Assembly (NCBI RefSeq): GCF_001956985.1
Contig: NZ_CP019082.1
Coordinates: 744,001-808,000, forward strand
Source of the DNA: Paludisphaera borealis
Lineage (GTDB): Bacteria > Planctomycetota > Planctomycetia > Isosphaerales > Isosphaeraceae
DNA length: 64,000 nt
Reading direction: 5' to 3'
Positions 13,369-54,514 of this stretch are shown one piece after another. Numbering within the stretch: position 1 is the first letter of the stretch; each line of letters begins with the position of its first letter. Below the pieces are notes generated by a model. The model did not search any database and had not been told where the DNA came from. It worked only from the letters and a program-made list of their open reading frames with translations. The translations under genes were made by a program, and so were the position numbers.

Positions 13369-14304
13369 TCACTTATCGCGGTTCGTTCGCGCCCGCCGCC
13401 CCGTGTAATAGCCCTCGCTCGGGTCGCGTTGGCCGCTCGCATAGCTCTCCGACCAGACCTTCTTCTTGTCGAGGGTCACGTCGTAGGGGGCCGCTGTGAT
13501 CCGGGCGGTCGCGTAGTGCCACGTCGCCTTTTCGGGCGACGGCCCTCTCGCCTCGATCAGGAGCATGGCCTCCGGGTTCGTGCCGGTGGCGAACACGAAG
13601 ATCGCCCCGTCCACCAGATCGTTCTTCTCGTCGGCGTAGCGGGCGATCGGATGCGGCATGAGCCGGAGGACGACGGTTTCATTGCTGTCGTGTTGCTCCG
13701 TGCAAGCGAACCGATCCGCGATGGACCTGAGCTGGCGGAGGCGACCGAGCGGCTTCTTGTCGGGCGTCGGCCCGCCGGGCAGTTCCTGGAACGTGGCGGC
13801 GGCCTTTCTGGGGGCCCAGTGAAGATCGCCGTTCAGGAGCTTCGCGAACTTGGCGGCGTTGTCGGGATCGGCCCCGACGCCCGCCTCGAACTCCAGAGGG
13901 TCCGTCGTGAGCGAGATGAACTCGAACGCCCACGACGAGACGGGCGCGCCGCTCTCCGTTACGGGATAGAGTTCGAGCGCGACGACCGCGAGCGGCCTCC
14001 CGGTCTCGCCGAAAGCCCACAGCGAGGCGTCGCTGGCTCGGCGGGCCGGGTCGCTGAACCGGAGCAAGGGTTCCCCTCGCAGCTTGATCGGCTGTTTTTC
14101 GGCGCCCACGCCGCGATAGGCCGACAAGGATTCGGCGATCTGTTTCATCTCGTTGGACCGGTCGTTCCGCTCTTTGTCCGCGGCGGAACGATCGTCCTGG
14201 GCGAAGAGGTTCCGGTCGGCGACCGTGCACGACAGGGCGGCGAACAGCAGGGCGACGACCCATCGGGGGGGCGTCGTGGTCCGGAGGGAGTCGTGATGGT
14301 TCAT
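13369..14304 (-). CDS. secreted protein of the six-member 'RLRQM/DPE' family (copy 1)
   Basis: This 311-residue protein with an N-terminal signal (WVVALLFAALSCTVADRNLFA) belongs to a family repeated six times in this window. Shared blocks visible here are GEPLLRFSDPARRASDASLW, the GRPLAVVALELY strand, FEFISLTTDPL, the LRQLRSIADRF helix, RLMPHPIARY, DGAIFVFATGTNPEAMLLIE and KKVWSESY. The order and spacing are conserved among copies, suggesting a single globular extracytoplasmic domain. I know no named domain that fits, and no catalytic residues stand out. It is divergent from the blaI gene, with a BlaI-like operator in the shared 236-base gap, so it may be co-regulated. AAGGAA precedes the ATG at 14304. 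Confidence 0.8.
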   Translation of the reverse strand: MNHHDSLRTTTPPRWVVALLFAALSCTVADRNLFAQDDRSAADKERNDRSNEMKQIAESLSAYRGVGAEKQPIKLRGEPLLRFSDPARRASDASLWAFGETGRPLAVVALELYPVTESGAPVSSWAFEFISLTTDPLEFEAGVGADPDNAAKFAKLLNGDLHWAPRKAAATFQELPGGPTPDKKPLGRLRQLRSIADRFACTEQHDSNETVVLRLMPHPIARYADEKNDLVDGAIFVFATGTNPEAMLLIEARGPSPEKATWHYATARITAAPYDVTLDKKKVWSESYASGQRDPSEGYYTGRRARTNRDK

Positions 14305-14466
14305 GGGAGAGTTCCTTTCCGTCATTGACACGCCGCTCAAGACGGCCGCGCCGCCAGTTCGAGCTTCGGTCCACACTTTGAAGATCCCGGCGTCGTCGAC
14401 GACTCCGGTCGGCCCAAGGCCTGAAATCGATGCGTCGATGATTTTATCGAAGCGGTCGAATTCGAG

Positions 14467-14501
14467 TTGACACCGGAGCCCTGTCGGCGATATTTGTAGT
14501 C
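14467..14501 (+). promoter_or_regulatory. blaI promoter with BlaI-type operator over the -10
   Basis: TTGACA (14467-14472) is a perfect -35. After 16 bases comes GATATT (14489-14494) as -10. The 16-bp element GGCGATATTTGTAGTC (14486-14501) overlaps it; its right half GTAGTC fits the BlaI/MecI half-site and its left half is degenerate. The same layout recurs at 38119-38085 and 39248-39283. It lies 40 bases before the blaI start, which suggests autorepression. Confidence 0.6.
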
Positions 14502-14540
14502 GGACGACGGGAATCGTAACTCTCCGGGGGAAATCCGGCA

Positions 14541-14987
14541 ATGTCTCATGAAGCCCCCGAGCCGCTGACGGCGGCCGAGTGGAAGGTAATGAAGATCGTC
14601 TGGCGGCGAAAGAGCTGCGCCGCGAGGGACGTATACGAAGAGGCCGGGGTAGAGCACGGCTGGGCGCCGAGCACGACGAAGACGCTGTTGCGTCGGTTGA
14701 TCGACAAGGGGCATTTGACGGCGACGGCGGTCGGCACGAGCTATCTGTACCGCCCGTCTCGGCCGGCCTGGAAGTCGCTCGCCGGGGCGGCCGACAGCCT
14801 GCTGGACAAGACCCTCGAAGGGCTCGACGGCAAGCTGCTGGCCTACATGGTGCAGCGGAGTCGTTTGACGTCCGACGACCTGGCGCAGCTTCGGTCGTTG
14901 CTCGAACAGCATCCCGCCGGGGGCGACGCCGCGTCGAAGGTGGAATCGGCGGCGACATCGGAGACCGGTCCCGAGGAGGCGCCATGA
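14541..14987 (+). CDS. blaI: BlaI/MecI-family transcriptional repressor
   Basis: This 148-residue protein has the BlaI winged helix: LTAAEWKVMKIVWRRKSCAA, RDVYEE, then the recognition region APSTTKTLLRRLIDKGHLTA and the wing TAVGTSYLYRP. The dimerisation segment follows (LLDKTLEGLDGKLLAYMVQR, SSDDLAQLRSLLEQ-like), then an acidic tail. BlaI repressors bind TACA/TGTA-type dyads and are inactivated by proteolysis triggered by an M56 membrane sensor. Here the M56 gene follows with a four-base ATGA overlap, so the pair is translationally coupled. A TTGACA promoter with a dyad over its -10 lies just upstream. Beta-lactam sensing is unlikely, since the partner carries propellers in place of a penicillin-binding domain. 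Confidence 0.93.
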   Translation: MSHEAPEPLTAAEWKVMKIVWRRKSCAARDVYEEAGVEHGWAPSTTKTLLRRLIDKGHLTATAVGTSYLYRPSRPAWKSLAGAADSLLDKTLEGLDGKLLAYMVQRSRLTSDDLAQLRSLLEQHPAGGDAASKVESAATSETGPEEAP

Positions 14988-17900
14988 TTTCGATCGAGAT
15001 CCTGAACGCCTGGGGCGAGGCCTGGACCGGGGCGATGGGCCGGGCGCTCCTCGATTCCTCGGGGCTGCTGGTGGTCGTGCTGGTGGTCTGGCTCCCCTTG
15101 CGTCGGCGGATCTCGGCGCAGCTCGCTCATGGGATGTTCTGCCTGGTTCTGCTCCGTCTGGCGGTGCCGCAAGCGTTGCCCTGGCCGTCCTGGCTGCCGG
15201 CGCCTTCGGTCCGTCGCGTGGTCGAACGGACCGCGGCCTGGGCGTGGCAGCCGGGCGACAAGGTCGTCGAGCCGCCCGTGGCCACGGCGCTGATCCCGCC
15301 GCCGGTCGAGCCGACGGACTTCGAGTTGCCGACGACGGGCGACCTGGTCGCGAGCCCCACCGAAGCGCCGCCGACCGCCGTGGCGGGGGCGGTTCGAGAC
15401 GCTTCGCCGCCGGTCCGAGCGTCGTCGTCGACCCTCTCGCCGCGCGCCTGGCTGATGATCGCCTGGGGAGCGATTTCGCTGGTGCTGCTCGGTCGTTTCG
15501 GCAGGTCGGCGCTGGCGACCCGGGCTCTGATTCGGGATGCGCTGCCGGTCGATCCTGAGTGGATGCCGGTGGACGTCGGGGCGCTCGAAGCGGCGGTGGG
15601 CGTTCGCAGGCCGGTGCAGTGGGCGGTCAGTCCCCGTCTCCGCACGCCGGCCGTCGGCGGTTTGTTCCGGCCGACGGTCGTGCTCCCGCCGGATCTTGAG
15701 GACGGCCTGACCCAGCAACAGTTACGTTGGGTCTTGCTCCACGAACTCGCGCATGTTCGACGCGGCGACCTTTGGGTGGTGATGGCCCAGCGCCTCGTGC
15801 AATCGGTTTTCTTCTTTCATCCGGCCGTTCACGTGGCCAACTGGGTGATCGACCAGCTTCGCGAGTACGCGTGCGACGACGAGGCCCTGGCGGCGAGCCA
15901 GGCGCCGCGCCGCGACTGCGGCGAAGGGTTTCTGACGGTCGCCGGCCGATCGGTCGAGTCCGAGCCGGCATCCGCGTCGGTGCTCGGGCTGTTCGAGTCG
16001 CGGATGGTGATCCGTCGCCGGCTGGTGCGGATTCTCGATCCGGATCGCGAGGTCCATGCGCGGCTGTCGATCCGGTCTTCGATCGCTCTGTTCGCGGCCG
16101 CCGCGGTGGTCGTCGCCTTCGGGCGAACTCCGGAAGCCTCGGCGCGGCCGAGAGATCGGCTCGACCTGGCGTCGAACCGGCCGGGCGCGACGATCGAGCC
16201 CGAGCCCGCGGCGTACCGCCCCGGCGAGATCTGGCACCGCGAGGCTGCTCCGGCCGCCGCGAGGTCGTCGGTGCTGGCGATGGCGTACTCGGCCGACGGC
16301 TCCTTGCTGGCCACGGCGGGCGAAGGATCTCTGATCGTGCTTCGCGACGTCCGCTCGGGCCAGGTCGTCAGCCGGCTCAGCGGTCACGCCGACGCGGTCT
16401 CGTGCCTCGCGTTTTCAGCCGACGGCAAGACGCTCGCCTCGGGCGGTTACGATGCGACCGTCCGCCTCTGGGACGTCGCCGGCGGTCGCTCGCTCGCCGT
16501 TCTGAAGGGGCACGCCAACTGGATCTTCGGCCTGGCGTTCGCGCCCGACGGGGAGACGGTCGCCTCGGCGGGGCATGACAAGTCGATTCGGCTCTGGAGC
16601 GTGCCTGACGGCCGCGAACGCGCGGTGCTTCTGGGTTCCACCGGATCGGTTCGCGCCCTCGCCTTTTCCGCCGACGGCCGGACGATCGCCTCGGGGGGCG
16701 CCGACCGAATCGTGACGCTCTGGGACGTGGCCGAGGAGACCCCTCGCGGTCGCCTGGAAGGTCATCGCGGGACGATTCGCGCCCTCGCCTTCGCGCCGGG
16801 CGGTTCCGGGTCGGGCTTGAGGCTCGCCTCGGCCGGTGAGGACGGCGAGGTTCGCTTCTGGGAGGCCGAGGCGGGGCGAGTGGGACCGATCGCGACGCTG
16901 GCGGGTCATCCCGACATGGTCGTCTGCCTCGCGTTCTCGCCCGGCGGCTCGATGCTGGCGACCGGGGGGCTCGACGCGACCGTCAAACTCTGGAATCCGA
17001 CCGACGGCCGCGAGCGGGCCACGCTGCGGGGCCACCACGACGGCGTTTCGGCTCTGGCGTTCGCCCCCGGAGCCCGGCAGTTGGCAACCGCCGGATTCGA
17101 CGGCGTCGTTCGGCTCTGGGAGCCGTCGCCGCCGGCTTTCTCGCCGGCCGCCTGCTGGAACGTCGCCGGTCCGACTCGCGGTCTCGGCTTCTCCGCCGAC
17201 GGCCGCGCGCTGTCCACCCTGGGTTCCGGCGGGATCGAACATTGGGACGTCGTCACCGGCCTGGCGCGAGCTTCGTCGACCGTCTCCAAGGCGGTGCTCG
17301 ATCACCCGAACGGTCCGTTCGCCGTCTCACTCAGCGGTCGACTCGGCGCTTTCGGCGCGCTCGACGGCACGATCCGGCTCGTCGAGATCGATTCCGGCCG
17401 GTCGACGACCGAACTCAAGGGGCACAAGGGCGCGGTCGTGGCGGTTTCCTTCGCCGGCGACGAGCGCGGGCTCGCCTCGGTGGGAAGCGACGGCCGGGTG
17501 CTGCTCTGGGATTGCAAGGCCGGGCGCGGGCTACGCGAACTCGACCGGGTCGAGGGGGTGGTCTCGTCGCTCGACTTCTCGCCCGACGGCGTCCGACTCG
17601 CCGCCGGCACCGATCGCGGCGTGATCGTCTGGGGGGCCGAGGGCCGCATGACTCTCCCGCCCGACGTCGCGACGACGCGCGCCTCGGCGCTCGCTTTCGC
17701 GCCCGACGGCAAGACGCTCGCCATCGCCGGAACCGACGGCGAACTGCGCCTGATCGATTTCCCGATCGACGGCCGTCGATCTTACAAGAACGGCGTCTGC
17801 GAAACCCTGGCGTTCTCTCCCGACGGCCGGACGCTCGCATCGGCCCTGAACAACGGTGAGATCGCCTTGCGGGACGTTCGCTCCGGCCGAGAAATCGGCG

Positions 17901-18949
17901 TCCTCCGCGGTCATCAGGGGGCGGTCGCCGAGTTGGCCTACGCCCCCGACGGCCGCTCGATCGCATCGGCCGGGGTCGACGGCGCGGTGAAGATCTGGAA
18001 CCTCAACGCACGACGACTCACGGCGCGGGAATCGCTCAAGCCCGAGCCCGCGTGCCCGTGGGCCGTCGTCTATTCGGCCGACGGCTCCACGCTGGCGGTG
18101 GCCGAGGGACGCGCCGACGTCCCCGGCGTCGTGACGCTCTGGGACGTTGACGCGCGTCGCCCCCGGTTGACTCTCGAAGGCCACGCGCGAGGCGTCGTCG
18201 CCGTGGCGCTTTCTCCCGACGGCGCCACCGTCGCCTCGGGCTCGTTCGATCAGACCGTCCGGCTCTGGGACGCCCGAACGGGGGCGATTCGTTATGTGAT
18301 CGACGGCCTGGACGGCGTCGTGACCGAGCTTGCGTTCTCGCCCGACGGGTCGCTGCTGGCCACCGCCGGCGAGTCGGGCTGGGTCACGCTCTGGGCCACC
18401 GAATCGGGCGAGGAATCGGTCCGACTCGACGGCTTTCGGGGGCGGGTGCAGTCGGTCGGTTTCTCTCCCGACGGCCGCCTCGTCGCGGCGGGCGGGGGCG
18501 TCGGCGACGCAGGCCCGAACGCCCGGGGAGAGGTCAAGGTCTGGACGATCGCTGACGGGAAGGCCCTCGACGGCTTCACCGGCCACACCCGCCCGGTCGT
18601 CGCGGTCGAGTTCTCGCCGGACGGAGCGACGCTCGCCACGGGCGGCCTTGATGAAACCCTGCGTCTCTGGAAGGTCGGCGACGGCCGTTCGCGGCTGACC
18701 TTGTCGGGACTTCCCGGGCGCGTCCTTTCACTGGCGTTCGCTCCCGACGGCCGATCCTTCGGGTGGTCGGGACGGAACGACGGCCTCGTCGCCGTTCACG
18801 AGACTTCGACCGGCGCCGAGATCGCTCGCCTGGTCGGCCACTCCGCGACGGTTCGCGACCTGGCGTTCTCGCCCGACGGCTCAACCCTCGCGACCGCCGG
18901 CGCCGACCGTTCCGTGAAGTTCTGGGATGTTCCTAAACCGAGGAATTGA
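14984..18949 (+). CDS. M56 membrane metalloprotease fused to 21 WD40 repeats
   Basis: This is a 1321-residue fusion. The first about 380 residues are a BlaR1/MecR1-type M56 peptidase: membrane helices near 24-38, 44-60, 150-170 and 363-380, zinc motif HELAH at 253-257, and third-ligand region REYACDDEA near 293-301. From about residue 430 to the end are 21 WD40 units of about 42 residues, ending typically in LWD or LW. Twenty-one equals three seven-bladed propellers. By BlaR1 topology the propellers should lie outside the cytoplasmic membrane and act as the sensor. ATGA overlap with blaI shows coupling. The known pathway would be ligand sensing, M56 activation and BlaI cleavage; the ligand is unknown. 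Repeats 8, 9 and 11 are divergent. Confidence 0.92.
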   Translation: MISIEILNAWGEAWTGAMGRALLDSSGLLVVVLVVWLPLRRRISAQLAHGMFCLVLLRLAVPQALPWPSWLPAPSVRRVVERTAAWAWQPGDKVVEPPVATALIPPPVEPTDFELPTTGDLVASPTEAPPTAVAGAVRDASPPVRASSSTLSPRAWLMIAWGAISLVLLGRFGRSALATRALIRDALPVDPEWMPVDVGALEAAVGVRRPVQWAVSPRLRTPAVGGLFRPTVVLPPDLEDGLTQQQLRWVLLHELAHVRRGDLWVVMAQRLVQSVFFFHPAVHVANWVIDQLREYACDDEALAASQAPRRDCGEGFLTVAGRSVESEPASASVLGLFESRMVIRRRLVRILDPDREVHARLSIRSSIALFAAAAVVVAFGRTPEASARPRDRLDLASNRPGATIEPEPAAYRPGEIWHREAAPAAARSSVLAMAYSADGSLLATAGEGSLIVLRDVRSGQVVSRLSGHADAVSCLAFSADGKTLASGGYDATVRLWDVAGGRSLAVLKGHANWIFGLAFAPDGETVASAGHDKSIRLWSVPDGRERAVLLGSTGSVRALAFSADGRTIASGGADRIVTLWDVAEETPRGRLEGHRGTIRALAFAPGGSGSGLRLASAGEDGEVRFWEAEAGRVGPIATLAGHPDMVVCLAFSPGGSMLATGGLDATVKLWNPTDGRERATLRGHHDGVSALAFAPGARQLATAGFDGVVRLWEPSPPAFSPAACWNVAGPTRGLGFSADGRALSTLGSGGIEHWDVVTGLARASSTVSKAVLDHPNGPFAVSLSGRLGAFGALDGTIRLVEIDSGRSTTELKGHKGAVVAVSFAGDERGLASVGSDGRVLLWDCKAGRGLRELDRVEGVVSSLDFSPDGVRLAAGTDRGVIVWGAEGRMTLPPDVATTRASALAFAPDGKTLAIAGTDGELRLIDFPIDGRRSYKNGVCETLAFSPDGRTLASALNNGEIALRDVRSGREIGVLRGHQGAVAELAYAPDGRSIASAGVDGAVKIWNLNARRLTARESLKPEPACPWAVVYSADGSTLAVAEGRADVPGVVTLWDVDARRPRLTLEGHARGVVAVALSPDGATVASGSFDQTVRLWDARTGAIRYVIDGLDGVVTELAFSPDGSLLATAGESGWVTLWATESGEESVRLDGFRGRVQSVGFSPDGRLVAAGGGVGDAGPNARGEVKVWTIADGKALDGFTGHTRPVVAVEFSPDGATLATGGLDETLRLWKVGDGRSRLTLSGLPGRVLSLAFAPDGRSFGWSGRNDGLVAVHETSTGAEIARLVGHSATVRDLAFSPDGSTLATAGADRSVKFWDVPKPRN

Positions 18950-18990: not shown

Positions 18991-20622
18991 ATGCGGCACG
19001 GCCCGAGACTTGTGACGATCGCAGTGTGGTCGACCTTCGCCGTGGCCTGCTTCGCGTCGCTTCGCGAAGTTCCGGGGGCCGATCCGAAGCCGGCGGCCGC
19101 CAAGACCAAAGCCACGGCGTCAAGCGAACTGACCGCGGTGATCGATAAAACGTTCGAGGACGCCTGGGCCAAGGCGAACGTCCGCCCTGCCCCGTCGGCC
19201 GACGACGCTGAGTTCGTCCGCCGCGTCTACCTCGATCTCGTCGGCAAGATTCCCCGAGTCTATGAGACTCTCGCCTTTCTCGACGATCCGGCGCCGACTG
19301 CCGAGAAGCGGGCGAAGCTTGTGGAGATGCTCCTCGAAAGTCCGGCGTATCTCTCCCGAGCGACGGAAACGTACCGCGCGATGCTGCTTCCCGAAGCCGA
19401 GACCGACGCCCAGGTTCGCAACGTCCTGCCGACCTTCGAGGCCTGGCTGCGGAAGAAGGTCGTCGACAACGCCGGTTACGACAAGATCGTCCGCGAGGTT
19501 CTCACGGTCAGCCTCGGAGGTCGGGGCCGGCGCGCGGGGAATGCGCTCGACCCGAGAGCTTCGCCGTCTCCGTTGGCCTTCTACATCGCCAAGGACGCCA
19601 AGCCCGAGAACCTGGCCGCCAGCGCCTCGCGGCTGTTTCTCGGCGTGCGCATGGAGTGCGCCCAGTGCCACAACCACCCGTTCTCGCACTGGAAGCGGGA
19701 GGAGTTCTGGGGCCTCGCGGTTTTCTTCGGCGGGGTGACTCGACAGGGAGGGAATCAGGCCTTCGGCCAGATCCGCGAGAACGAGTCGCCGCGCGAGATG
19801 GTGATCCCCGGCACGACGAGGGTCGCCCGCGCGGCCTTGCCCGGCGAGGCGGAAACGAAGTGGCGTCGGGGCGCGTCGGGCCGCGAGGTTCTGGCCGACT
19901 GGATCACGGCTCCCGACAATCCGTATTTCGCCCGAGCGGCCGTCAATCGCGTCTGGGCCCGATTCTTCGGCGTCGGACTCGTCGAGCCGGTCGACGACTT
20001 GCGCGACGAGAACCCCTCGGCCCATCCCGAGCTTCACGACCGCCTGGCTCGTGAGTTTCGCGAGCACGGCTACGATCTCAAGTACCTGATCCGCGCGATC
20101 ACCGCCAGCAAGCCGTACGGGTTGACCAGCGCGGTCGGCCGTTCCGAGCTGGCCCCCCCCCAGTTGTTCGCAGCGATGCCATTGCGGAGCCTCTCTCCCG
20201 ACCAGCTTTTCGACTCGCTCTCCCAGGCCACGGGGCTTGGAACGACGGGCCAGGACATGATCGGCGGCGACGCCCGGTCTCGGTTCAGCGAGCTGTTCGC
20301 CAACCGCGATGAAAAATCGACGGAGGGGCAAGTCTCCATCCTTCAGGCGCTTTCGTTGATGAACGGCCCGTTGATCACTTCGGCGACGAGTCCCGAGACC
20401 GGGAATACGCTGGCCGCCGTCGTCGACTCGCCGTTCCTCGACACGGCGGGAAAAATCGAATCGCTCTACCTCTCGGCCCTCAGTCGTCGCCCCCGAGCCG
20501 ACGAGTCGGCCGCGATGACCGCCTTCGTGCAGCAGGGAAAGAGCGAGAGCGATCGCGCGAAAGCTCTCGGCGACGTCTTTTGGGCGCTGCTGAACAGTCC
20601 TGAGTTTCGGTTCAATCACTGA
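18991..20622 (+). CDS. DUF1549/DUF1553 (PSD1-type) protein, short form
   Basis: This 543-residue protein has an N-terminal signal (LVTIAVWSTFAVACFASL). DUF1549 begins at EFVRRVYLDLVGKIP, a haem-like or metal motif follows in CAQCHNHPFSHW, and DUF1553 follows (RAAVNRVWARFFGVGLVEP, then FREHGYDLKYLIRAI). Unlike the other two PSD1 proteins in this window, it lacks the N-terminal cytochrome c-like domain. The ATG at 18991 has GGGAGG seven bases upstream; an in-frame start at 18949 overlaps the M56 stop and has weaker support. It sits in the same transcription unit as blaI-M56 and is followed by its DUF1501 partner. The function of this family is not established; planctomycetes encode many copies. 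Confidence 0.88.
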   Translation: MRHGPRLVTIAVWSTFAVACFASLREVPGADPKPAAAKTKATASSELTAVIDKTFEDAWAKANVRPAPSADDAEFVRRVYLDLVGKIPRVYETLAFLDDPAPTAEKRAKLVEMLLESPAYLSRATETYRAMLLPEAETDAQVRNVLPTFEAWLRKKVVDNAGYDKIVREVLTVSLGGRGRRAGNALDPRASPSPLAFYIAKDAKPENLAASASRLFLGVRMECAQCHNHPFSHWKREEFWGLAVFFGGVTRQGGNQAFGQIRENESPREMVIPGTTRVARAALPGEAETKWRRGASGREVLADWITAPDNPYFARAAVNRVWARFFGVGLVEPVDDLRDENPSAHPELHDRLAREFREHGYDLKYLIRAITASKPYGLTSAVGRSELAPPQLFAAMPLRSLSPDQLFDSLSQATGLGTTGQDMIGGDARSRFSELFANRDEKSTEGQVSILQALSLMNGPLITSATSPETGNTLAAVVDSPFLDTAGKIESLYLSALSRRPRADESAAMTAFVQQGKSESDRAKALGDVFWALLNSPEFRFNH

Positions 20623-20730: not shown

Positions 20731-22098
20731 ATGACCTCCTTTCGATCGACGCGTAACGCCGGGGGGCTCTCCCGTCGCGCCCTGATGAGGCTCGCCGCCG
20801 CGGGCGCGGTCGGTTGTTCGGTCTCGGGCTGGATCGAGGCCCTGGCGGCGAACGCCGCCGCCGACCCGAAGCGCCGGAAGGCGTGCATTCTGCTTTGGAT
20901 GTCGGGAGGCCCGACCCAGACCGACACCTTTGATCCCAAACCGGGGCACGCCAACGGCGGCGAATTCAAGGCGATCGACACCGCCGTGGCGGGCGTCAAG
21001 ATCAGCGAGCACCTGCCGGGGCTGGCGAAGCGGATGAACGACCTGGCCCTCATCCGCTCGATGAGCACGAAAGAAGGGGACCACGGCCGGGCCACGTTCA
21101 CGATGCGGACAGGCTACCTTCCCGCCGGTCCCATCCGCTACCCGACGCTCGGCTCGCTGCTCTCGAAGGAACTCGGCGATGACGCTGCGGAGCTGCCCAA
21201 CTTCGTCAGCGTCGCGCCGGTGCGGGCGTTGAATCCGGCGGCCTTCAGCTCGGGCTTTCTCGGGCCGCAGTTCGCGCCGCTGGTTGTCGGCGAGCGCGCC
21301 GTGACGACGCCGGGAGGCGGCCGCGACGCGCGGAACTTGTCGTTCGCGGTGGAGGATTTGAACCTTCCCGCCGGCATCGATCCGCATCGATCCGACTCTC
21401 GCCTGGCCCTGCTCGATGCGATGCGCCGCGACTTCGGCGGACGTCATCCGGGGGTCTCTCCGGAGAGCCACGACGACGCCTATCAGCGCGCCGTACGGCT
21501 GATGAGGTCGTCGGCGGGGAAAGCGTTCGAGCTTGACGAGGAACCGGCGACGCTCCGCGACGCCTACGGGCGGACGCCGTTCGGTCAGGGGTGCTTGCTC
21601 GCCCGCCGGCTCGTCGAGCGCGGAGTGCCGTTCGTGGAGGTGACCTTGTCGTCGGCCCAATCGTCGGGAGGGCTCGGATGGGACACCCACGCCGGGAACT
21701 TCGACGCCGTGAAGCAGTTGAGCGGAGTCCTCGACCCGGCCTGGTCGACCTTGATCGACGACCTTCGCACCCGAGGATTGCTCGACTCGACCTTGATCGT
21801 CTGGATGGGCGAGTTCGGCCGAACCCCCAAGATCAACTCCAACGCCGGCCGGGACCACTTCCCCGACGCCTGGACCGCGGTTCTCGGCGGCGGCGGAATC
21901 AAGGGAGGCCAGTTCGTCGGCGATACGGGCGTGGACGGCATGAAGGTCACGGACAGGCCCGTGGCCGTGCCCGACTTTCTGGCCACGATCTGCAAGGCGC
22001 TCGGCGTCGACCCGATGGCCCAGAACCTGGCCGAGGCCGGGCGGCCGATTCGACTCGTCGACCCGAAAGCGAAGCCGATTCAAGAGGTGCTCGCATGA
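20731..22098 (+). CDS. DUF1501 protein with Tat-like signal
   Basis: This 455-residue protein begins with a Tat-like signal (LSRRALMRLAAAGAVGCSVS). It shows the DUF1501 landmarks: LLWMSGGPTQTDTFDPKP, then [77 protein letters not shown] and KGGQFVGDTG. The fold is alkaline-phosphatase-like (sulfatase superfamily), and the conserved Asp/His residues could bind metals. It lies 108 bases after the PSD1 gene, and the two are the usual planctomycetal pair. Its stop overlaps the next gene's ATG by four bases. The catalytic reaction is not known. Confidence 0.92.
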   Translation: MTSFRSTRNAGGLSRRALMRLAAAGAVGCSVSGWIEALAANAAADPKRRKACILLWMSGGPTQTDTFDPKPGHANGGEFKAIDTAVAGVKISEHLPGLAKRMNDLALIRSMSTKEGDHGRATFTMRTGYLPAGPIRYPTLGSLLSKELGDDAAELPNFVSVAPVRALNPAAFSSGFLGPQFAPLVVGERAVTTPGGGRDARNLSFAVEDLNLPAGIDPHRSDSRLALLDAMRRDFGGRHPGVSPESHDDAYQRAVRLMRSSAGKAFELDEEPATLRDAYGRTPFGQGCLLARRLVERGVPFVEVTLSSAQSSGGLGWDTHAGNFDAVKQLSGVLDPAWSTLIDDLRTRGLLDSTLIVWMGEFGRTPKINSNAGRDHFPDAWTAVLGGGGIKGGQFVGDTGVDGMKVTDRPVAVPDFLATICKALGVDPMAQNLAEAGRPIRLVDPKAKPIQEVLA

Positions 22099-23801
22099 TT
22101 CGCTCTGGCGCGTTCCGCCTGCTCTCGGCGACGGCTCCGGCGTTTCTGGCCGCGATCCTGGGCTCGGCTCCCTCCCGCTCGGAGGCCGACGACCGTCCCG
22201 ACCCCGCGCCTGCGAGTGATCGCGAGGGGCCCCAGGACCTCATGTTTCTCGCCGACGGCCGCCCGGTGTTCATTCGGTTGAAGTTCGACACCGGCGGCCG
22301 AGGGTTCCGCTCGGCGTGGCTCGACGCCGTGAAAGAGTTGCACGGCTATCTCGACCGCGACGGCGACGGCACGCTGACCCGCCAGGAGGCCGACCGCGGC
22401 GGCCTGCCCACGATGGTTCGCGCCGCGACCGGCAACAACGCCGCTCTGCCGACCGCCGACCTCGACGCCGATCCGCGCGACGGCAAGGTCTCGCTGGACG
22501 AGCTGGCCGCCGTGCTTCGTCCCGCGCTGGGACCGTTTCGGGTTCAGGTCGACCGCCTCGCGGTCGAGAAGACCGACGCCTTGTTCAATCAACTCGACCG
22601 TGACAAGAACGGCCGCCTCTCGCAAGCCGAGCTGCGGTCGGCGGTCGCTTCGCTTCGTCGATTCGACCTCGACGACGACGAACAGATCAGCCCCGACGAA
22701 CTCGATCCGTTCCGCAACCCGACGGCCGCGCAGTTCGAGGTCGACGACACCCGGCGCGGCCGGTTCACGGCCGTCCCTCCCGTGATCGAGCTGTCCGCCG
22801 AGGCCCCTTCGGTCCGCCCCGTCCGGATGCTCTTGCGGCGGTACGACACGGGCGCCGGCGAAGGCGCGGTCGGGGGCGACAACCGGCTTTCGCACGGCGA
22901 GTTCGGCATCGATCCCCGTGACTTCGAGGCCGCCGACGCCGACGCCGACTCGGCTCTCGACTCCGAGGAACTACGTCGCTATCTGGCCAAGGCCGCCCCG
23001 GACGTCGAACTGACCGTCAAGCTGCCCGACGACGGCAAGACGCCCGCCTCGATCGAGGTCGGCAGCTCGGGCTCCAAAGCGGTCCCGCCGGGGGTGCGGG
23101 TTCAGCGGATCTCCAGCTCCGACATCGAGGTGGCCGTCGGCGAGGTGAATCTCGAATTCCACGCCGACGCCGGCGCCCGCGGCGACGAGGCCGCGAAGTC
23201 CTACTATCAGAACCTGTTCCGCGCCGCCGACGTCGACAAGAACATGTATCTGGAAAAGTCGGAGGTGAAGGACCAGGCGCCTCTGTCCTCTTTGTTCGAT
23301 CTCCTGGATCGCGACGGCGACGGCAAGGTGGATCTCAAGGAGGTCGACGCCTTCTCCGAACGCCAGTCGCGCGTCGCGCGCAGCCAGTTGGTTCTCTCGG
23401 CGGCCGACCAGGGCCGCGCGATCTTCGCGATCGTGGATCTGAACCGCGACCGCAAGCTAGGCGAGCGCGAGGTTCGCAGCGCCGTCGACCGGGTGTCGTC
23501 CTGGGACCGCAACGGTGACGGTCAGGTGAGCGCCGATGAGATCCCTCATCACTTCCAGATGACGATCGGCCGAGGTCGGTTCAATCCCTTCCACGCGAAC
23601 CTGGCGATCGGCCACCACGTCCCCGCTCCTGTCGCGAAGCCGGCCGCCTCCGGCCCGGAGTGGTTCCGCAGGATGGATCGCAACCACGACGGCGACGTCT
23701 CCCGTCGTGAATTCCTCGGCCCGCGCGCCGACTTCGACCGGCTCGACGTCGATCGCGACGGACTCCTGAATCCCGACGAAGCCGCCGCCGCGAAGTCGTA
23801 G
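22095..23801 (+). CDS. secreted protein with about 11 EF-hand loops
   Basis: This 568-residue protein has a signal peptide (LLSATAPAFLAAILGSAPS). About eleven EF-hand-type calcium loops are visible, among them LDRDGDGTLTRQE, LDRDKNGRLSQAE, DLDDDEQISPDE, ADVDKNMYLEKSE, LDRDGDGKVDLKE, WDRNGDGQVSADE and MDRNHDGDVSRRE. A beta-rich central segment without loops (about residues 300-370) separates two groups of EF-hands. EF-hand proteins like this are abundant outside the cytoplasm in planctomycetes and probably bind calcium. The four-base ATGA overlap with the DUF1501 gene shows translational coupling. It is the last gene of the blaI unit and converges on the VWA operon. Confidence 0.88.
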   Translation: MIRSGAFRLLSATAPAFLAAILGSAPSRSEADDRPDPAPASDREGPQDLMFLADGRPVFIRLKFDTGGRGFRSAWLDAVKELHGYLDRDGDGTLTRQEADRGGLPTMVRAATGNNAALPTADLDADPRDGKVSLDELAAVLRPALGPFRVQVDRLAVEKTDALFNQLDRDKNGRLSQAELRSAVASLRRFDLDDDEQISPDELDPFRNPTAAQFEVDDTRRGRFTAVPPVIELSAEAPSVRPVRMLLRRYDTGAGEGAVGGDNRLSHGEFGIDPRDFEAADADADSALDSEELRRYLAKAAPDVELTVKLPDDGKTPASIEVGSSGSKAVPPGVRVQRISSSDIEVAVGEVNLEFHADAGARGDEAAKSYYQNLFRAADVDKNMYLEKSEVKDQAPLSSLFDLLDRDGDGKVDLKEVDAFSERQSRVARSQLVLSAADQGRAIFAIVDLNRDRKLGEREVRSAVDRVSSWDRNGDGQVSADEIPHHFQMTIGRGRFNPFHANLAIGHHVPAPVAKPAASGPEWFRRMDRNHDGDVSRREFLGPRADFDRLDVDRDGLLNPDEAAAAKS

Positions 23802-23835: not shown

Positions 23836-26358
23836 TCAGGCGAGCCCGAGCCGCCGCCGCCAGACCCACTCGATCGTCAGCAGGGCCAGGAGCGCGAGCA
23901 GCAGCGGCCACGTGCTCCAGGCGGGAACCGTCTTGATCTCGGAAGGACCGACGATTCGCGGCAGCCCGGCGAGCATCGAGGAGAGGTCGTCGGCGGTTTT
24001 GAGCACGGTCCCGCCCGACTGCTCGGCGATCCGTCGCAGCAGGGCGTGATCGGGCAACGGATTTTGTTGTTCGGTCGGGTCGTCGAGCACCTGCACTTCG
24101 ATCGCCGTGCTGTCGACCTGCGTGTTGTCCTCGTAGGCGGTCAGCTCGATGCGCAGGCCCTGAGTCAAGGTCACGCCGGGCGGCAGAGACTTCGCGGTCG
24201 CGATATCGAGCTTGGCGTTGTACGCGGTATCGGCGGCCGACCGCGTCAGCTCGAACTCGTCGCCCCAGGGGAGGAGCGGCCCCCCGGCGGCGGTCGCCTC
24301 GGCCGATTCGCTGGGCAGGCCCGAGGGGCGTCGCAAGGGAGAGAGATCGGAGGCGGCGTCGGAGGCGCTTCTGGGCTCGATCGACACGGCGACTCGATAG
24401 CCGAGCGTCGCCGCGGCGTTCTCGTCGAACGCGTGCGCCCGCACCATGATCGGCTCGCCGGGTCGATAGAGTCGTTTATCGGTTTCGGCGAGCAGCCGTC
24501 GCCGAGCGATCGACGAATTCTCGGTCAGCCAGTAAACCACGTTGCGCCAGAATTTGTTGTAATAGCGCGCGTCGCCCTCGCCCCAGCGAAGGCTGAAGTC
24601 GTTGGCGTACCGCCGGGTGACGCCCGTCAGCATCGCCATCGTGCGTCCTCGGCCGAACGGCTGAGCGGCGATCAAGGGGGACGGCGAGGCGTCGCCGTCG
24701 GTCGCCACGGCCTCGGCCCCCGGCTTCAGCCGGCCGAGCCGGTTGTGGCCCTGGAACGCCGGCAGCGTTTTGAGCAGGTCGCGGTTCTTCACTTCGTCGG
24801 TGGAAATGTGCCAGATCGGATGCAGGCGTCCGGCGTTGGACGGTCGCAGAGTCACCGGGTCGTCGAGCCAGTCGCGGCCGACGGCAGACAACTCGACGGG
24901 AAGCATCTTCGCCACCGAGGATTCGTTCCACCGGCCCGAGGCGAACGAGTTCGGCCCCCCCGCCATGCAGAGCCCTCCCCCGCGATGGCCGATCCAGTCT
25001 TCGAGCCAGGCGAGTTGCTCGTCGCCGAGCGCTTCGCGAGGAACGTTGCTGAGGATGAGCGCGTCGAAGGCGAAAAACTCCGAAGCCGTCGACGGCAATC
25101 CTCGCAGCCGTGCGTCGGCTCGGGTGAAGAACGACACGTTTCCGGAGGCCCCGGTCAACAGCGTCACGGCCGCGCATTCAATGTCCGGGTCTTCGGTCAG
25201 CGCTTCCAGCAGCGGCGAATAAGCCCCCTTCACTTCGCCCGCGGTCGACGAATTGGCGCCGCGCCCGCCCGTCGCCCGATTGGCGACGAAGCTCTCGGTC
25301 GCCCCTTCCAGGTAGAGGACGCGGATCTTCGTATGATCGATCGACAACTCGGTCGTGAATTGGTTGTTCTCGGCTGAAACCTCGCCCGGCTGGGGATCGA
25401 TCACGGCGGCGATTTTCCGGTCCTCGTCGCCCGATGAGAAGCTAAGCGTATACGTGGCAAGGCCGTCCTGGAGCGAGATCGGAGTCCGGGCCAGCACGGC
25501 GCTGGGTTGACCGGACGGATCGAGAGCGACGATCTTCAACTCCGCTCCACGTCCCGCGTAGCCGAAGCTCCGGACGAACACCTGGCTGGCGATCTCGGAA
25601 AACTTGCGCGCCTGAGTCGGCGCGACCATGCTGACGATCGCCACGTCGCCTCCGACGTCTTCCTCGCCGACGGGGAAGACATGGACGGGAACGTTCAGCT
25701 TGCGATAGGCGCGAGCGATCGCGTCGGCCCGTTCCGGATCGCGCGCGCGGCCGTCCGAGAAAACCACGACGGCTTGCGGAGGAGTCGAGTCGAACCGCCC
25801 CGCGAGTCCTTCAAGCGAGGCGGCGAGCCGCGTGTCGGAGTCGGTCGGCTCGGGCGGTTCCTGTGAAGCCCCCGGCGCGGCGGCGAGCGCTTCTCCGGGG
25901 GCCGATCGAGGCGTCGAGTCGTCGGTTGTGGGATGGGGATTCAGCGACGCCGGATCGACGGCGGCGAGGCGGTCGCCGAAGCGAAAGACGCTCACCTGCG
26001 CGCCCGCCTTCGGGTCGTTCGACAAGCCTCGGTCTCGGATGACTCCGACGACCTGATCAAATCGCGTCCCCGCTTTGCCCAGGGCCATGCTCTGGGACGA
26101 ATCCAGCAGATAAACCACCTTCGGCCGCTCGATCGGCCCGGCCGTCTCGTCGACCCGAATGGGATTGAGGAGGATCAAGCCGAGGACCGCCAAGGTGAGC
26201 AGCCGAAGGACCAGGAGCGACCGCCGTCTCGCCGGCGCGATGGGGCGGCCGGCGGTCTTGCGCAGCAGCAGGGCCGTCGCCGCGATTCCCACAACCGCCG
26301 CCGTGACGAGGGCGATCGAAAAAGGAGGCGCCCATTGCAGGGTCGATTCAACGCTCAT
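23836..26358 (-). CDS. VWA and GATase1-like membrane protein, 840 aa
   Basis: This protein has two N-terminal membrane helices (residues about 13-32 and 47-66), then a von Willebrand A domain with MIDAS DSSQS at 86-90 and AVVVFSDGRARD as a later strand. A glutamine-amidotransferase-like segment follows (ALILSNVPREALGDEQLAWL, GGGLCMAGGPNSF), lacking an evident catalytic triad. The chain ends in a membrane helix (WPLLLALLALLTIEWVW). This architecture is common beside BatA-type proteins and MoxR ATPases, which cooperate in envelope stress or in metal insertion into VWA partners. It is the last gene of the ten-gene operon, 67 bases after the DUF4175-like gene. Confidence 0.86.
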   Translation of the reverse strand: MSVESTLQWAPPFSIALVTAAVVGIAATALLLRKTAGRPIAPARRRSLLVLRLLTLAVLGLILLNPIRVDETAGPIERPKVVYLLDSSQSMALGKAGTRFDQVVGVIRDRGLSNDPKAGAQVSVFRFGDRLAAVDPASLNPHPTTDDSTPRSAPGEALAAAPGASQEPPEPTDSDTRLAASLEGLAGRFDSTPPQAVVVFSDGRARDPERADAIARAYRKLNVPVHVFPVGEEDVGGDVAIVSMVAPTQARKFSEIASQVFVRSFGYAGRGAELKIVALDPSGQPSAVLARTPISLQDGLATYTLSFSSGDEDRKIAAVIDPQPGEVSAENNQFTTELSIDHTKIRVLYLEGATESFVANRATGGRGANSSTAGEVKGAYSPLLEALTEDPDIECAAVTLLTGASGNVSFFTRADARLRGLPSTASEFFAFDALILSNVPREALGDEQLAWLEDWIGHRGGGLCMAGGPNSFASGRWNESSVAKMLPVELSAVGRDWLDDPVTLRPSNAGRLHPIWHISTDEVKNRDLLKTLPAFQGHNRLGRLKPGAEAVATDGDASPSPLIAAQPFGRGRTMAMLTGVTRRYANDFSLRWGEGDARYYNKFWRNVVYWLTENSSIARRRLLAETDKRLYRPGEPIMVRAHAFDENAAATLGYRVAVSIEPRSASDAASDLSPLRRPSGLPSESAEATAAGGPLLPWGDEFELTRSAADTAYNAKLDIATAKSLPPGVTLTQGLRIELTAYEDNTQVDSTAIEVQVLDDPTEQQNPLPDHALLRRIAEQSGGTVLKTADDLSSMLAGLPRIVGPSEIKTVPAWSTWPLLLALLALLTIEWVWRRRLGLA

Positions 26359-26425: not shown

Positions 26426-29400
26426 TCAAGGAGTCGCCTTCGCCCCGTCGGTCGAAAGGACTTCGTAATAGCGCTCGACCAATTCGCGATATTCAGGAGG
26501 CGTCGACTCGTCTCGGGAGGCGGCGAGATCCCGGAGAATCAACTCCTGGACCCGCTCGCGGAGCTTCGCCGAGACCTTCGAGAAGGCCCCCGCGTAATCG
26601 GCCGGAGGGACGAGGTATCCGTCAGGCCCCGCGTTCCAGGGCTTGACCCCCGACCGGTCTTCCTTGAGGACGCGTTCAAGGGCCTCGGCGGCGGCGGTCA
26701 GTCCCGCTTTTTCGAGATCGCGAAGGAGGGCCTCGGATTGCCCAAGCCACTCGTCGCGCTGAGCTTCGGTCTCCAGCTTGTCCAGGCGGGACGCCAGCCG
26801 GGCGACGCGTTGGTCAAGCTCGGTGAGCCTGGCGAGTTCCGGGGCGATCATCCCCCGGTGAATTCCATCGATGCGGCGGGCGAGCCCTTCGAGCGTGCGC
26901 GCCAGGTCTCGGGCTTCGTCCGCGGCTTCCTTTTTTCGGTCGTCGAGATACAAGGCGCCCACGCGGTCGGCCTTCTCGACGATTGCGGCGGTCTCGCCTT
27001 GCTCCAGCAACTCGCGAACCTGCGAGGCGGCGTCGCCTTCGGCGTTCTGAGCGGCGCCCTTGAGCCACTCCTCCAGGGTTCTGGCCGCCTCCTTCATCTG
27101 TTCGAGCTTCTCGGCGTCGGTCATCGCCTTCCATTCGGATCGAGTGGTCGAGCCCGCGTTCGAGCCGGGCTCCGCATCCGTCTCGGGAGCTTTCTCGTTC
27201 CCGGGTTCGCCGTTCTGGTCGCGGTCGTCGCCTGTGGGGGAGGAGGTTGATGAACGACGAGCGAGGTACTCGGCGAATTCGGCCTCCTGGCGCGCGAGTT
27301 CGTCGGCGAGGTCGCGGGCCTGAGCCAGCTCGTCGGCGATCTCGGTGCTGACGTCCCCTTTGACCTGACGGGCGACCTCGTGCAGGAGGAGGGCTCCGGC
27401 GCGAGCGGCCGCGGTTCCTTCCTTGGTGTTCCCCCGCGTCAGGGCGGCGGCGGCTTTTTCGGTGACCTCGGCGGCGCTCGTCATGCGTTCCTTGGCCAGG
27501 TCGGAGGCTTGTTCGAGACGCTTGAGCCGCTCTTCGAGGGCTCTCGCCTCGTCGGCGATCGTCTCCTGACGGCCCAGCGCGTCGGCGCGGGCTTTGGTCT
27601 CGTCCTCCTTCGCCTCGTTCTCAGGGTTCAGGTTCTTCAAGGTCGCGTGGACGGAGTCTTCGGCCAGGGCGAGCTGTTCGAGTTCGAGGGCGATGCTGTC
27701 GGCCTCGGCGCTCTTGCTTCTCGGGGGGCGGAGCTTCTGGTTCATCCGCCGATCGAAGGCCCTTGCGGCGCCTGCCCGGCCGCCGCCGCCGCCGATCACG
27801 AGCCGGAACGTCCGCCGTACTTCGATGAGGTGGTGAAGGGCCTCGGTCATGCGGGTCGAAGCTTCCTCGGTGCGGCCCCTGTCGAGGGTCTCGACCGAAG
27901 CCAGCATCGCTTCCTCGGCCTGGTGCAGCGGTTCGATCCGTTCGCCGACCACGCCTTCGAGGCCCTCCGTGAATTCGCGGACGAGGCCCACGAGCGTTTC
28001 CTCGAACGTTGCGATCCGGATCGGGTCCTCGGCCGGAGTCCGGTCGTTGGGACGTCGCCGAGCATGTCGCGAGGCGCGGCTGAGGTTGAACCGCTGGCGG
28101 GCGATCAATTCGTCGAGCGACGTCGATTCACCGTCGCCTCCGCCTCCGCCGCCGCCCTCGCTGAACTGGTACTCGCGTTTGAACGGGCGGATGTCGAGGA
28201 ATCTCAGGTCGGTCTCGGTCCGGCGCGCCCCGTCGGGATGATTATCCTCGGCGAAGGCGTAATAGACGATGCTGTCGGTCGACGTCGCCTTGAATGTCTC
28301 GAGCATGAGCATTTCTTCCAACGTCGCCGTCGCGGTCAACGCGTCGGCGGAGCCGGTCGCGAACTCCTTCAGCAGCAAGGTTCGTTCCTCGCCGTCGTTC
28401 ATCCGAACCACGATCCCGGCGCGGGAGAGGCCGAAATCGTCGCTGAGCCGGATCCGATTACGGACCTCGGCCACGGGATGGACCTCGAGCGCCTCATTGG
28501 GTTCATCAAAACTGACGCGTGGGGCGCGGTCTTCATGAACGTCGATCCGATAGCGGTTCTTGGCGACGGCTCGGCCGTCGGCCGTTCGCGCCTCGATTCG
28601 ATAATGCCCGCTCTTCGCCAGTGTTGTGCTGGCGACGTACGTTCCGCTCTCGGCGCGCAACGGCAGAACCAGGGGCTTCGGTTCGGGGTCGCCTTTCTTC
28701 GGTCGGATCGAAGGATCAGTGAATACCAGTGACGCTTCGGCTGGCGCGGCGTCGAACGAGAGCCGAAACGTCGCGATCGTCCCCGCGATCGCCTGGAGGT
28801 CTCCCCCTTTCGCGATCGACGGGGCGAGGCGCGTGTACGCTGGAGCGTTCAGCCCGATTTCCAGGGTCTGGACGGCCAGAGGGTATCGAACGTCGATCTC
28901 GTAGGTCGAACTCGATTCCGGGCCGGCGTCGACCCAGTAGACCAGCGGCTCCTGGATCGCGTCGACCGTCGCAACGCGAGGGACCGCGCCCCCTTTCGCA
29001 CTCGAGCGGTCAGACGGATGCATCGGCGTCGTGGTCCAGGGATCGGTCGGCCGGTTGGCGGGACGCGTCCGCAGGGTGACATGACGACGCGGTCTACCTT
29101 TCAGTTCGACCGTGAAATCGACCGATTCCCCCTGCTCGATCCGCGTATCGCCCGGCAGGATCGCCAGGCTTGTGTAGACCGCATTACCCAGTAGGGCTCG
29201 CTTGAGGGCCGTTCGCCATTCCGGGGCGGCGGCCGCCGCGACGAGCAGGACGGCGACGGGAACCACCGACGCCGCGGCGACAAGCCAGACCTTCTCGCGA
29301 GGGACGACGCGGTTGAGCGACAACGGCTGAATATGCCCCTCGATCTCTTCGCCGAGGGCTTCGACGAGCCCCGGCGCGACGCCGGCGTCGGCGATCGCGT

Positions 29401-29755
29401 CGTCGTCGAGTCTGCCGTACTGGATGACCGTGCGGATGCGCTGGCCGAGCTGCGGAAACCGGCGTTCGATCTCGGCCGCGGTTCTCGGTCGGCTCCACCA
29501 CCGAGCCGGCGCGATCACGCGCCGGACCACCGTGGCCAGCGTGATCAGAACCGCGCAGGCCAATCCGGCCGTCCGGGCCGCGCCGGTCCACTCGAACCAG
29601 AAGTCGGCCGCCGTCAGTGCGATCAGACAGGTTCCGGCGACGAGCGCCGAAAGGCCGAGGCCGAGGCCGATTTGCGATCGCCGGAGCGAGGCGCGAAGGT
29701 CCTCGAAGCGTTCGAGAAACGGTGCTGCCGTGGGGTCGTTGATGGTGAGGCTCAC
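26426..29755 (-). CDS. DUF4175-like large membrane-anchored coiled-coil protein
   Basis: This 1109-residue protein has three or four hydrophobic helices near the N-terminus (LGLGLSALVAGTCLIALTAA, GLACAVLITLATVV, and WLVAAASVVPVAVLLVAAAA near residue 160). A long extracytoplasmic part follows, beta-rich to about residue 550 and then almost entirely charged coiled coil (residues 560-1090, Glu/Arg/Ala-rich). This matches planctomycetal and alphaproteobacterial DUF4175-type proteins encoded with MoxR/VWA operons. The GTG start at 29755 follows AAAGGAACG. It begins 19 bases after the BatA-like gene. It could act as a tether or scaffold for the neighbouring VWA proteins; that role is inferred from the coiled coil only. 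Confidence 0.82.
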   Translation of the reverse strand: MSLTINDPTAAPFLERFEDLRASLRRSQIGLGLGLSALVAGTCLIALTAADFWFEWTGAARTAGLACAVLITLATVVRRVIAPARWWSRPRTAAEIERRFPQLGQRIRTVIQYGRLDDDAIADAGVAPGLVEALGEEIEGHIQPLSLNRVVPREKVWLVAAASVVPVAVLLVAAAAAPEWRTALKRALLGNAVYTSLAILPGDTRIEQGESVDFTVELKGRPRRHVTLRTRPANRPTDPWTTTPMHPSDRSSAKGGAVPRVATVDAIQEPLVYWVDAGPESSSTYEIDVRYPLAVQTLEIGLNAPAYTRLAPSIAKGGDLQAIAGTIATFRLSFDAAPAEASLVFTDPSIRPKKGDPEPKPLVLPLRAESGTYVASTTLAKSGHYRIEARTADGRAVAKNRYRIDVHEDRAPRVSFDEPNEALEVHPVAEVRNRIRLSDDFGLSRAGIVVRMNDGEERTLLLKEFATGSADALTATATLEEMLMLETFKATSTDSIVYYAFAEDNHPDGARRTETDLRFLDIRPFKREYQFSEGGGGGGGDGESTSLDELIARQRFNLSRASRHARRRPNDRTPAEDPIRIATFEETLVGLVREFTEGLEGVVGERIEPLHQAEEAMLASVETLDRGRTEEASTRMTEALHHLIEVRRTFRLVIGGGGGRAGAARAFDRRMNQKLRPPRSKSAEADSIALELEQLALAEDSVHATLKNLNPENEAKEDETKARADALGRQETIADEARALEERLKRLEQASDLAKERMTSAAEVTEKAAAALTRGNTKEGTAAARAGALLLHEVARQVKGDVSTEIADELAQARDLADELARQEAEFAEYLARRSSTSSPTGDDRDQNGEPGNEKAPETDAEPGSNAGSTTRSEWKAMTDAEKLEQMKEAARTLEEWLKGAAQNAEGDAASQVRELLEQGETAAIVEKADRVGALYLDDRKKEAADEARDLARTLEGLARRIDGIHRGMIAPELARLTELDQRVARLASRLDKLETEAQRDEWLGQSEALLRDLEKAGLTAAAEALERVLKEDRSGVKPWNAGPDGYLVPPADYAGAFSKVSAKLRERVQELILRDLAASRDESTPPEYRELVERYYEVLSTDGAKATP

Positions 29756-32726: not shown

Positions 32727-32773
32727 TCGGTGCGGCTCCGCTATCTGGAATTCAACCTTTTTACTTTTCGTGT

Positions 32774-35939: not shown

Positions 35940-36977
<1,038 letters not shown>

Positions 36978-38084: not shown

Positions 38085-38119
38085 GGCTACAAATATAGTC
38101 GGTGCGGCGGTCGTGTCAA
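38085..38119 (-). promoter_or_regulatory. MoxR/VWA operon promoter with BlaI-type operator over the -10
   Basis: On the minus strand TTGACA (38119-38114) is followed after 16 bases by TATATT (38097-38092). The 16-bp dyad GACTATATTTGTAGCC (38100-38085) covers the -10. Half-sites GACTAT and GTAGCC fit the GRCTAC/GTAGYC pattern with one mismatch. It lies 84 bases before the first gene of the ten-gene operon. Confidence 0.65.
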
Positions 38120-38186
38120 CGGTTATTCTCGGAGTCCTTGATGCTTTCTTTCCTCGGTCGCTCGCCGCGGCTTCGAGGCGCGTGAT

Positions 38187-51218: not shown

Positions 51219-51235
51219 GGTTCCCTCGTCCGTGG

Positions 51236-54514
<3,279 letters not shown>

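Follow-up and report, generated by a model that had tools for sequence, protein, structure and literature searches.

What does a protease of the BlaR1 type respond to, and which genes does it control, when WD40 repeats stand where BlaR1 carries its penicillin-binding sensor? The question is raised by a gene in a 64,000-nucleotide stretch of the Paludisphaera borealis genome (NZ_CP019082.1, positions 744,001 to 808,000, forward strand), which is referred to below as the window and in whose numbering coordinates are given. Switches of the BlaR1 type are known chiefly from beta-lactam resistance. The domain matches support the identification of the gene product as a protease resembling BlaR1 in which WD40 repeats occupy the place of the sensor, encoded next to a BlaI-type repressor. 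The parts (M56, BlaI and WD40) are ordinary, and what is unusual is their combination, the length of the tail and the tie to one gene cluster. Both its location and a recurring promoter stretch link this WD40-bearing switch to a cluster of envelope-type genes that is conserved and uncharacterised. The core features are the following:

14541..14987, plus strand: BlaI/MecI-type repressor, 148 aa (Penicillinase_R, PF03965, E 7.7e-28)
14984..18949, plus strand: M56-WD40 fusion, single open frame, 1321 aa
16253..18946, plus strand: 21 WD40 units, residues 424–1321 of the fusion (core-motif spacing; models)

The ATG of the fusion gene overlaps the stop codon of the BlaI-type gene. Residues 144–347 of the protein match Peptidase_M56 (PF05569, E 1.7e-35, 123.1 bits, curated cut-off 31), and hydropathy analysis places hydrophobic helices near residues 22–39, 46–63, 154–172 and 363–380, in the same order as in BlaR1. 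A first-pass annotation, made by a model from the sequence alone, had described an intact HELAH motif and third-ligand region. This was confirmed, as HELAH (253–257), Asp262 and E294xxxD298, with the zinc site H253/H257/E294, are identical in the window protein and its three full-length orthologues. By motif, these residues correspond to H201, H205, Asp210 and E242 of BlaR1, as given in excerpts of PMC9834060. A profile of the window protein and the three orthologues matches the BlaR1 structures 8exp and 8exs (E 2e-4). The NCBIfam model blaR1_generic reaches 74.6 bits against a cut-off of 400, with only profile positions 152–326 of 585 matched. The same annotation held that WD40 repeats take the place of BlaR1's penicillin-binding sensor, in agreement with the matches to PF05569, PF03965 and the WD40 family PF00400 (E 1.4e-140, 452 bits, cut-off 27).

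Two observations on the membrane and protease part weigh against a BlaR1-like switch. The first concerns Cys312, which occupies the presumed column of BlaR1 Tyr261, a residue that excerpts of PMC9834060 call near strictly conserved. This column is Tyr in 60 of the 83 M56 rows of the alignment used for the tree described below; it was placed by spacing, with BlaR1 not aligned, because the paralogue L017 found no PDB chain by sequence at E values up to 0.01 (G and L numbers are our handles for genomes and loci). Cys is present in 15 rows and Ser in four, mostly within the M56 clade of the window protein, as would be expected if this lineage were weakened or inactive and bound BlaI instead of cutting it. 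We consider such a loss of activity improbable: the zinc ligands are complete, the general-base Glu and Asp262 are present, and HExxH with Asp262 is found in 83 of 83 rows (rows picked for having HExxH). The second observation is that positive charge lies on both sides of the last helix, and the weak charge bias leaves the side of the tail undecided. The lack of a clear bias would suit a cytoplasmic location of the repeats, which is nevertheless hardly credible. Four hydrophobic helices in BlaR1's order would imply, by analogy, an outward tail, BlaR1 being N-out and C-out (PMC9834060, in excerpt), and WD40 arrays on planctomycete kinases are predicted to be mostly periplasmic in the part of PMC11032199 used here. 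The tail of the paralogue L023 ends in an AhpC/TSA domain, which is compatible with either side. In an AlphaFold2 model of residues 1–722, residues 1–409 fall below pLDDT 50, and the model is hence uninformative on the M56 fold.

Core-motif spacing in the window protein gives 21 WD40 units, as originally counted. The units cover approximately residues 424–1321 (898 residues), and the tail beyond the last hydrophobic helix (∼363–380) comprises ∼941 residues, ∼43 of them linker; these values correct the figure of 892 residues after the last membrane helix given earlier. In the alignment, 21 units are present in two of the three full-length orthologues, and the third (L078) is without unit 12 and has 20. 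A repeat profile counts 21 units in L077, 20 in L078 and 20 in L079.

The first-pass annotation interpreted the units as three complete seven-bladed propellers and proposed structure prediction as a check. An AlphaFold2 model of residues 401–1321, built from four sequences, has a pLDDT of 77.9 and a pTM of 0.45, and the structure matches listed for it comprise two domains only. Units 15–21 align with seven-bladed WD40 domains (5yzv: 290 residues, 1.5 Å, Z 43.2). Units 1–8 align with eight-bladed structures over 308–327 residues (1.6–1.9 Å, Z up to 46.1), namely Rsa4, ODA16, TBL1XR1 and Fbw7, which we take to be eight-bladed, and Tako8, which is titled as such. In a second model, ended after unit 7, units 1–7 close as a seven-bladed propeller with a strand at residues 411–417 (5yzv: 290 residues, 1.3 Å, Z 45.5), so the boundary of the first propeller depends on the cut. 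The four sequences share a mean pairwise identity of 58% in units 1–7, 40% in units 8–14 and 55% in units 15–21, and unit 8 is the least conserved of all (28%), which favours blocks of seven. Counting against such blocks, units that lie seven or 14 positions apart show no significant similarity when both lags are combined (permutation p 0.26). The proposed architecture thus stood for units 15–21, which model as a closed seven-bladed propeller, but for units 1–7 only if the chain is cut, the first propeller otherwise having eight blades; the orthologue with 20 units also counts against it. On these models, a 3 × 7 arrangement is likely rather than shown.

The fusion gene is part of a conserved row of genes, which continues downstream with the following members:

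18991..20622, plus strand: PSCyt2/PSD1 protein (DUF1549/DUF1553), start codon uncertain (Pfam; conserved order)
20731..22098, plus strand: DUF1501 protein, twin-arginine-like leader by eye (Pfam, E 4.1e-112; conserved order)
22089..23801, plus strand: EF-hand protein (Pfam; conserved order)

Among 45 genomes of the family, full orthologues are found in G043, G027 and G010, with 54–57% identity in the M56 part and 49–50% in the tail, and the order BlaI, M56-WD40, PSCyt2/PSD1, DUF1501, EF-hand is kept in all four full loci, the window included. A fifth genome, G009, contains the PSCyt2/PSD1, DUF1501 and EF-hand genes, and its contig breaks off inside the tail of the orthologue, leaving a C-terminal fragment. 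The suggested search for the same fusion beside BlaI elsewhere therefore returned three full orthologues and one C-terminal fragment, all from the same family. The 16 stretches opened from the 45-genome search contained WD40 on M56 in three cases, M56 without WD40 in 12 and BlaI alone in one. A profile search of 397 genomes of the class gave a match at E 1e-45 in 16 of them, six of which lie outside the family and are without WD40. When 84,980 species genomes were scanned, within the reach of the two peptide patterns used, 80 of 161 loci were kept, and among these WD40 occurs on M56 only in the same three orthologues. The window's own genome (7.65 Mb) has 16 M56 and 17 BlaI matches; none of the 15 other M56 proteins contains WD40 in Pfam at E 0.001, and eight of them carry CarboxypepD_reg domains, one also with AhpC/TSA. 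M56 tails vary widely in general, examples being an HlyD-type adaptor-like tail (by eye) in L195 (G280) and the AhpC/TSA domain of L023.

The evidence for a target beyond the operon itself comes from a conserved stretch upstream of BlaI, which recurs before a neighbouring cluster on the opposite strand; the first-pass annotation mentioned neither this recurrence nor the linked cluster:

14466..14519, plus strand: BlaI operon promoter stretch and candidate BlaI operator (GTTGACA, 13 bases, GGCGATATTTGTAGTCGNNCGAC, TCGTAA word)
38087..38120, minus strand: second copy of the promoter stretch, two mismatches, before the neighbouring cluster (pattern scan)
37063..38001, minus strand: C13-like protein, signal-peptide-like leader by eye (weak PF01650, E 0.00091, 19.3 bits, cut-off 22.8)
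35940..36977, minus strand: MoxR-type AAA ATPase (PF07726, E 1.8e-60)
34997..35893, minus strand: DUF58/vWA protein (PF01882, E 5.1e-45)
34205..34978, minus strand: F family member (alignment of F family)
33352..34152, minus strand: F family member (alignment; no Pfam or NCBIfam match)
31812..32777, minus strand: F family member (alignment; no Pfam or NCBIfam match)
29775..31748, minus strand: BatA-type vWA membrane protein (PF07584, E 2.9e-16; TIGR02226, E 3.5e-17)
26426..29755, minus strand: x1109, 1109-aa cluster protein (no Pfam match at E 0.01; in the cluster elsewhere)
23836..26358, minus strand: x840, 840-aa GATase1-like/vWA protein (PF07090, E 4.9e-11; in the cluster elsewhere)
13369..14304, minus strand: F family member, divergent from BlaI (alignment; no Pfam or NCBIfam match)
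38187..39095, minus strand: F family member (alignment; no Pfam or NCBIfam match)
39335..40282, plus strand: F family member (alignment; no NCBIfam match)

The stretch upstream of BlaI is conserved in four of four full loci as GTTGACA, 13 bases, GGCGATA(T/G)TTGTAGTCGNNCGAC and the TCGTAA word. Within it, TTGACA and, after a gap of 16 bases, GATATT or TATATT look like a promoter, and the portion beyond is the candidate operator. The site at 38087–38120 precedes the run of C13-like, MoxR, DUF58, three F proteins, BatA, x1109 and x840. Two patterns were used to search for further copies, each allowing up to three mismatches. The first, GGCGATANTTGTAGTCGNNCGAC, was built from the four BlaI sites alone and gave 13 matches in the four genomes (four for the reversed pattern): the four BlaI sites, five others with at most two mismatches, each before an F gene, and four with three mismatches, one of which was opened (L225) and had no cluster genes adjoining. 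The second, GTTGACA-N13-GGCGATATTTGTAG, was shortened after the weaker 38087 site had been seen, so that this site passes. Across the 45 family genomes it gave 11 matches in five genomes (two in G000, three in G010, two in G027, three in G043 and one in G033; four for the reversed pattern). Nine of these have at most two mismatches; they are confined to the four genomes in which the gene is intact and lie directly upstream of BlaI (four), the C13-like gene (one) or an F gene (four), with none in the 41 other family genomes. The remaining two, each with three mismatches, are in G010 (C152) and G033. The position at 14466–14499 matches without mismatch.

From these sequences we infer that the stretch may hold the BlaI operator, and several points weigh against doing so. 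Both patterns were made so that the four BlaI sites fit them. In G009 the cluster is present, but no site with up to three mismatches was found in the assembly, from which the BlaI region is missing, and five G009 F-gene stretches, one of which includes an upstream F-operon start, gave no site with up to four mismatches. Three further F genes of the window's own genome (L272–L274), located elsewhere, have no site in the stretches concerned. In addition, the stretch reads as a strong sigma70-type promoter, and its conservation may not stem from BlaI. It could be a strong housekeeping-type promoter of co-expressed envelope genes, in which case BlaI would use another site on its own operon and the cluster would not be a BlaI target. 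The TTGACA and GATATT or TATATT hexamers with their 16-base spacing, the imperfect dyads and the missing sites at some F genes of the same genomes fit this alternative. It is made doubtful by conservation that extends beyond the hexamers (TTTGTAGTC..CGAC....TTCGTAA), by the lack of matches with at most two mismatches in the 41 other genomes and by repeated TGTAG or CTACA words in two of the 14 BlaI upstream regions examined (of 16) among the paralogues of the same genome. Those two upstream regions contain possible operators of their own BlaI paralogues, with TGTAGG/TGTAGA words ∼22 bases apart in L022 and a paired CTACAAAGCGTAG/CTACAAGACGTAG in L021.

The tie between WD40-type tails and this cluster is also seen by position in other families. 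Two genomes picked for containing F genes, G119 and G068, have DUF1501, EF-hand, MoxR, DUF58, BatA, x1109, x840, F, C13-like and BlaI genes around an M56 gene of ∼630–730 codons (PSD1 in G068 only). Pfam identifies the G119 tail as WD40 (67 bits, cut-off 27), and the G068 tail gives propeller matches below cut-offs only. The expectation that the fusion would be found in other planctomycetes thus held in part, for shorter WD40-type tails that are borne on another M56 lineage. A profile of the two M56 proteins matched 82 of the 397 class genomes at E 1e-60, with or without a tail. Loci were fetched for the 25 best matches beyond both queries, all of which extend into the tail, and for 15 lower matches to the M56 part (one slightly beyond it). 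Some matches ranked below the best 25 likewise reach into the tail. A cluster marker (C13-like, F, x840, x1109 or BatA) was present in the fetched stretch of 17 of the 25 tail-matching loci and in none of the 15 others. The eight tail-matching loci without a marker, one of which (L339) lies at a contig end, count against the association. The WD40 profile matched the M56 protein in 19 of the 25 and in none of the 15, and the six misses are five members of family f5 and L348. In the five intact f5 tails this profile found nothing; they are called WD40-type by alignment and from the below-cut-off Pfam propeller matches of their relative in G068. L348 (G200 C2) is a broken M56 gene of the short-tailed, cluster-associated kind; three stop codons interrupt it, and BlaI, C13-like, F and x840 genes are nearby.

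In a quick tree of 83 M56 domains, supported by SH-aLRT only and made after removal of six rows without HExxH by pattern, duplicates and short rows, the four 21-unit proteins group together (SH-aLRT 96), nested among 20 proteins that are themselves a group (98); the remaining 16 of these gave no WD40 match. The 20 short-tailed (97) and six f5 (99) proteins are found in a separate group of 45 (98). A single clade of WD40-tailed M56 domains was rejected (lnL 203 lower, p-AU 2e-96), as was a single clade of their BlaI proteins (p 1e-70, from few columns and with long branches). The BlaI tree, built from 80 rows and 132 columns and showing long branches, requires four changes for the BlaI proteins of the short-tailed loci, which so do not form one group (L375 counted as other). 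A dyad, AGAC(A/G)-N3-(T/C)GTCTnTA, is located upstream of BlaI at 11 of the 12 short-tail loci (L337–L341, L343, L345, L349, L351, L352 and G119) and has two matches in 393 kb of control loci, the pattern having been derived from largely the same sequences as tested. This dyad is likely the operator of the second M56/BlaI lineage. A similar sequence, AGACAGGTTGTCTTACAA, is located upstream of BlaI at L018 in the window's own genome. Either the BlaI/M56 half was swapped under a retained tail, or WD40-type tails were gained twice, and either history suggests a match between tail and cluster. That two M56 lineages beside one cluster bear tails of one kind points to what the tail may read and makes the question of the ligand approachable.

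On balance, we regard it as fairly probable that the locus encodes a BlaR1-like switch for the envelope gene cluster, with a propeller sensor specific to that cluster. In such a switch, modelled on the BlaR1 mechanism as outlined in parts of PMC9834060 and PMC7593790, BlaI would repress two promoters that share one putative operator. One would drive its own operon (BlaI, M56-WD40, PSCyt2/PSD1, DUF1501 and EF-hand), presumably co-transcribed, and the other the neighbouring C13-like/MoxR/DUF58/F-family/BatA cluster. The M56 domain would lie in the membrane with its zinc site facing the cytoplasm and the WD40 tail outside; binding of a ligand by the tail would lead the protease to cut BlaI, and both promoters would be released. 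The signal may be a protein or polymer outside the membrane, as the first annotation also supposed. The likeliest ligand would be an exported product of the cluster, for example an F-family protein, and the cell would thus sense the state of an envelope assembly; this choice of ligand is conjectural.

As a rule, WD40 arrays act as binding platforms, and the tail could instead serve as a docking platform for exported cluster proteins while the protease is triggered otherwise, by membrane stress or through the loop between helices 2 and 3. The different tails of the 15 other M56 proteins of the genome (eight with CarboxypepD_reg, none with WD40) point the same way, in that tails may set location. 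We judge docking unlikely, as two M56 lineages found next to this cluster both bear WD40-type tails, a pattern that fits a cluster-specific input, although it fits docking too. A broader form of the sensor reading is tentative: WD40-type propellers would read the assembly state of a structure built by MoxR, DUF58 and BatA with F-family proteins, two separate M56/BlaI lineages would have acquired the same kind of tail for the same cluster, and the tail would have grown to 21 units in the family of the window.

Compared with known systems, the window protein most resembles BlaR1/BlaI and MecR1/MecI of Staphylococcus (MEROPS M56; PDB 8exp, 8exs), with which it shares the HExxH...ExxxD motif of M56, the hydrophobic helices, the adjacent Penicillinase_R repressor and the C-terminal position of the sensor. 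It differs from them in the WD40 array instead of a penicillin-binding sensor, in Cys at the presumed Tyr261 column and in its envelope-type neighbours. Long, predicted periplasmic WD40 arrays are described for planctomycete membrane Ser/Thr kinases in the part of PMC11032199 used here (up to 19 units; TPR arrays also occur there), whereas the window system is a protease with a repressor. The same excerpts report planctomycete ECF sigma factors joined to WD40, which are alike in placing WD40 on a transcription switch and differ in the output protein. MoxR-vWA-centric ternary conflict systems (excerpts of PMC7159879; Pfam bpMoxR) also bring together a MoxR ATPase, vWA proteins and, in their vicinity, a propeller protein. 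In the window, however, MoxR fits AAA_3 (203 bits) far better than bpMoxR (40.2 bits, cut-off 27), the partners are DUF58 and BatA, and the propeller is on the regulator. M56, BlaI and DUF58 are absent as terms from the main text of PMC7159879. No M56-WD40 fusion was found in the titles and abstract starts of the open-access literature searched, subscription papers being mostly outside its scope. The tie of the fusion to one cluster is observed in the repeated promoter stretch within the family of the window and in position across two M56 lineages.

The F proteins are ∼300 residues long, unnamed and exported-looking, with signal-peptide-like starts by eye. No Pfam match was obtained for the four members scanned and no NCBIfam match for the five scanned. 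The family is present in five of the 45 family genomes, namely the four with an intact M56-WD40 gene and G009, and in seven of 392 genomes of a phylum sample, the window's own included. The C13-like protein had no PDB relative by sequence at E values up to 0.1. A known defence system received no support, as a PADLOC search with nine proteins returned one weak match, DolB to the MoxR protein (E 1.2e-4). Elsewhere in the same genome, two WD40 proteins unjoined to M56 are encoded at L201 and L203 (G000 C1, near 1205540–1208510 and 5726100–5728890). Their open frames have 990 and 930 codons, and each protein contains ∼20 units and, by eye, a leader-like N terminus. Two further gene pairs of the PSD1/DUF1501 type are located in the window at 49746–54610 and 56427–60471.

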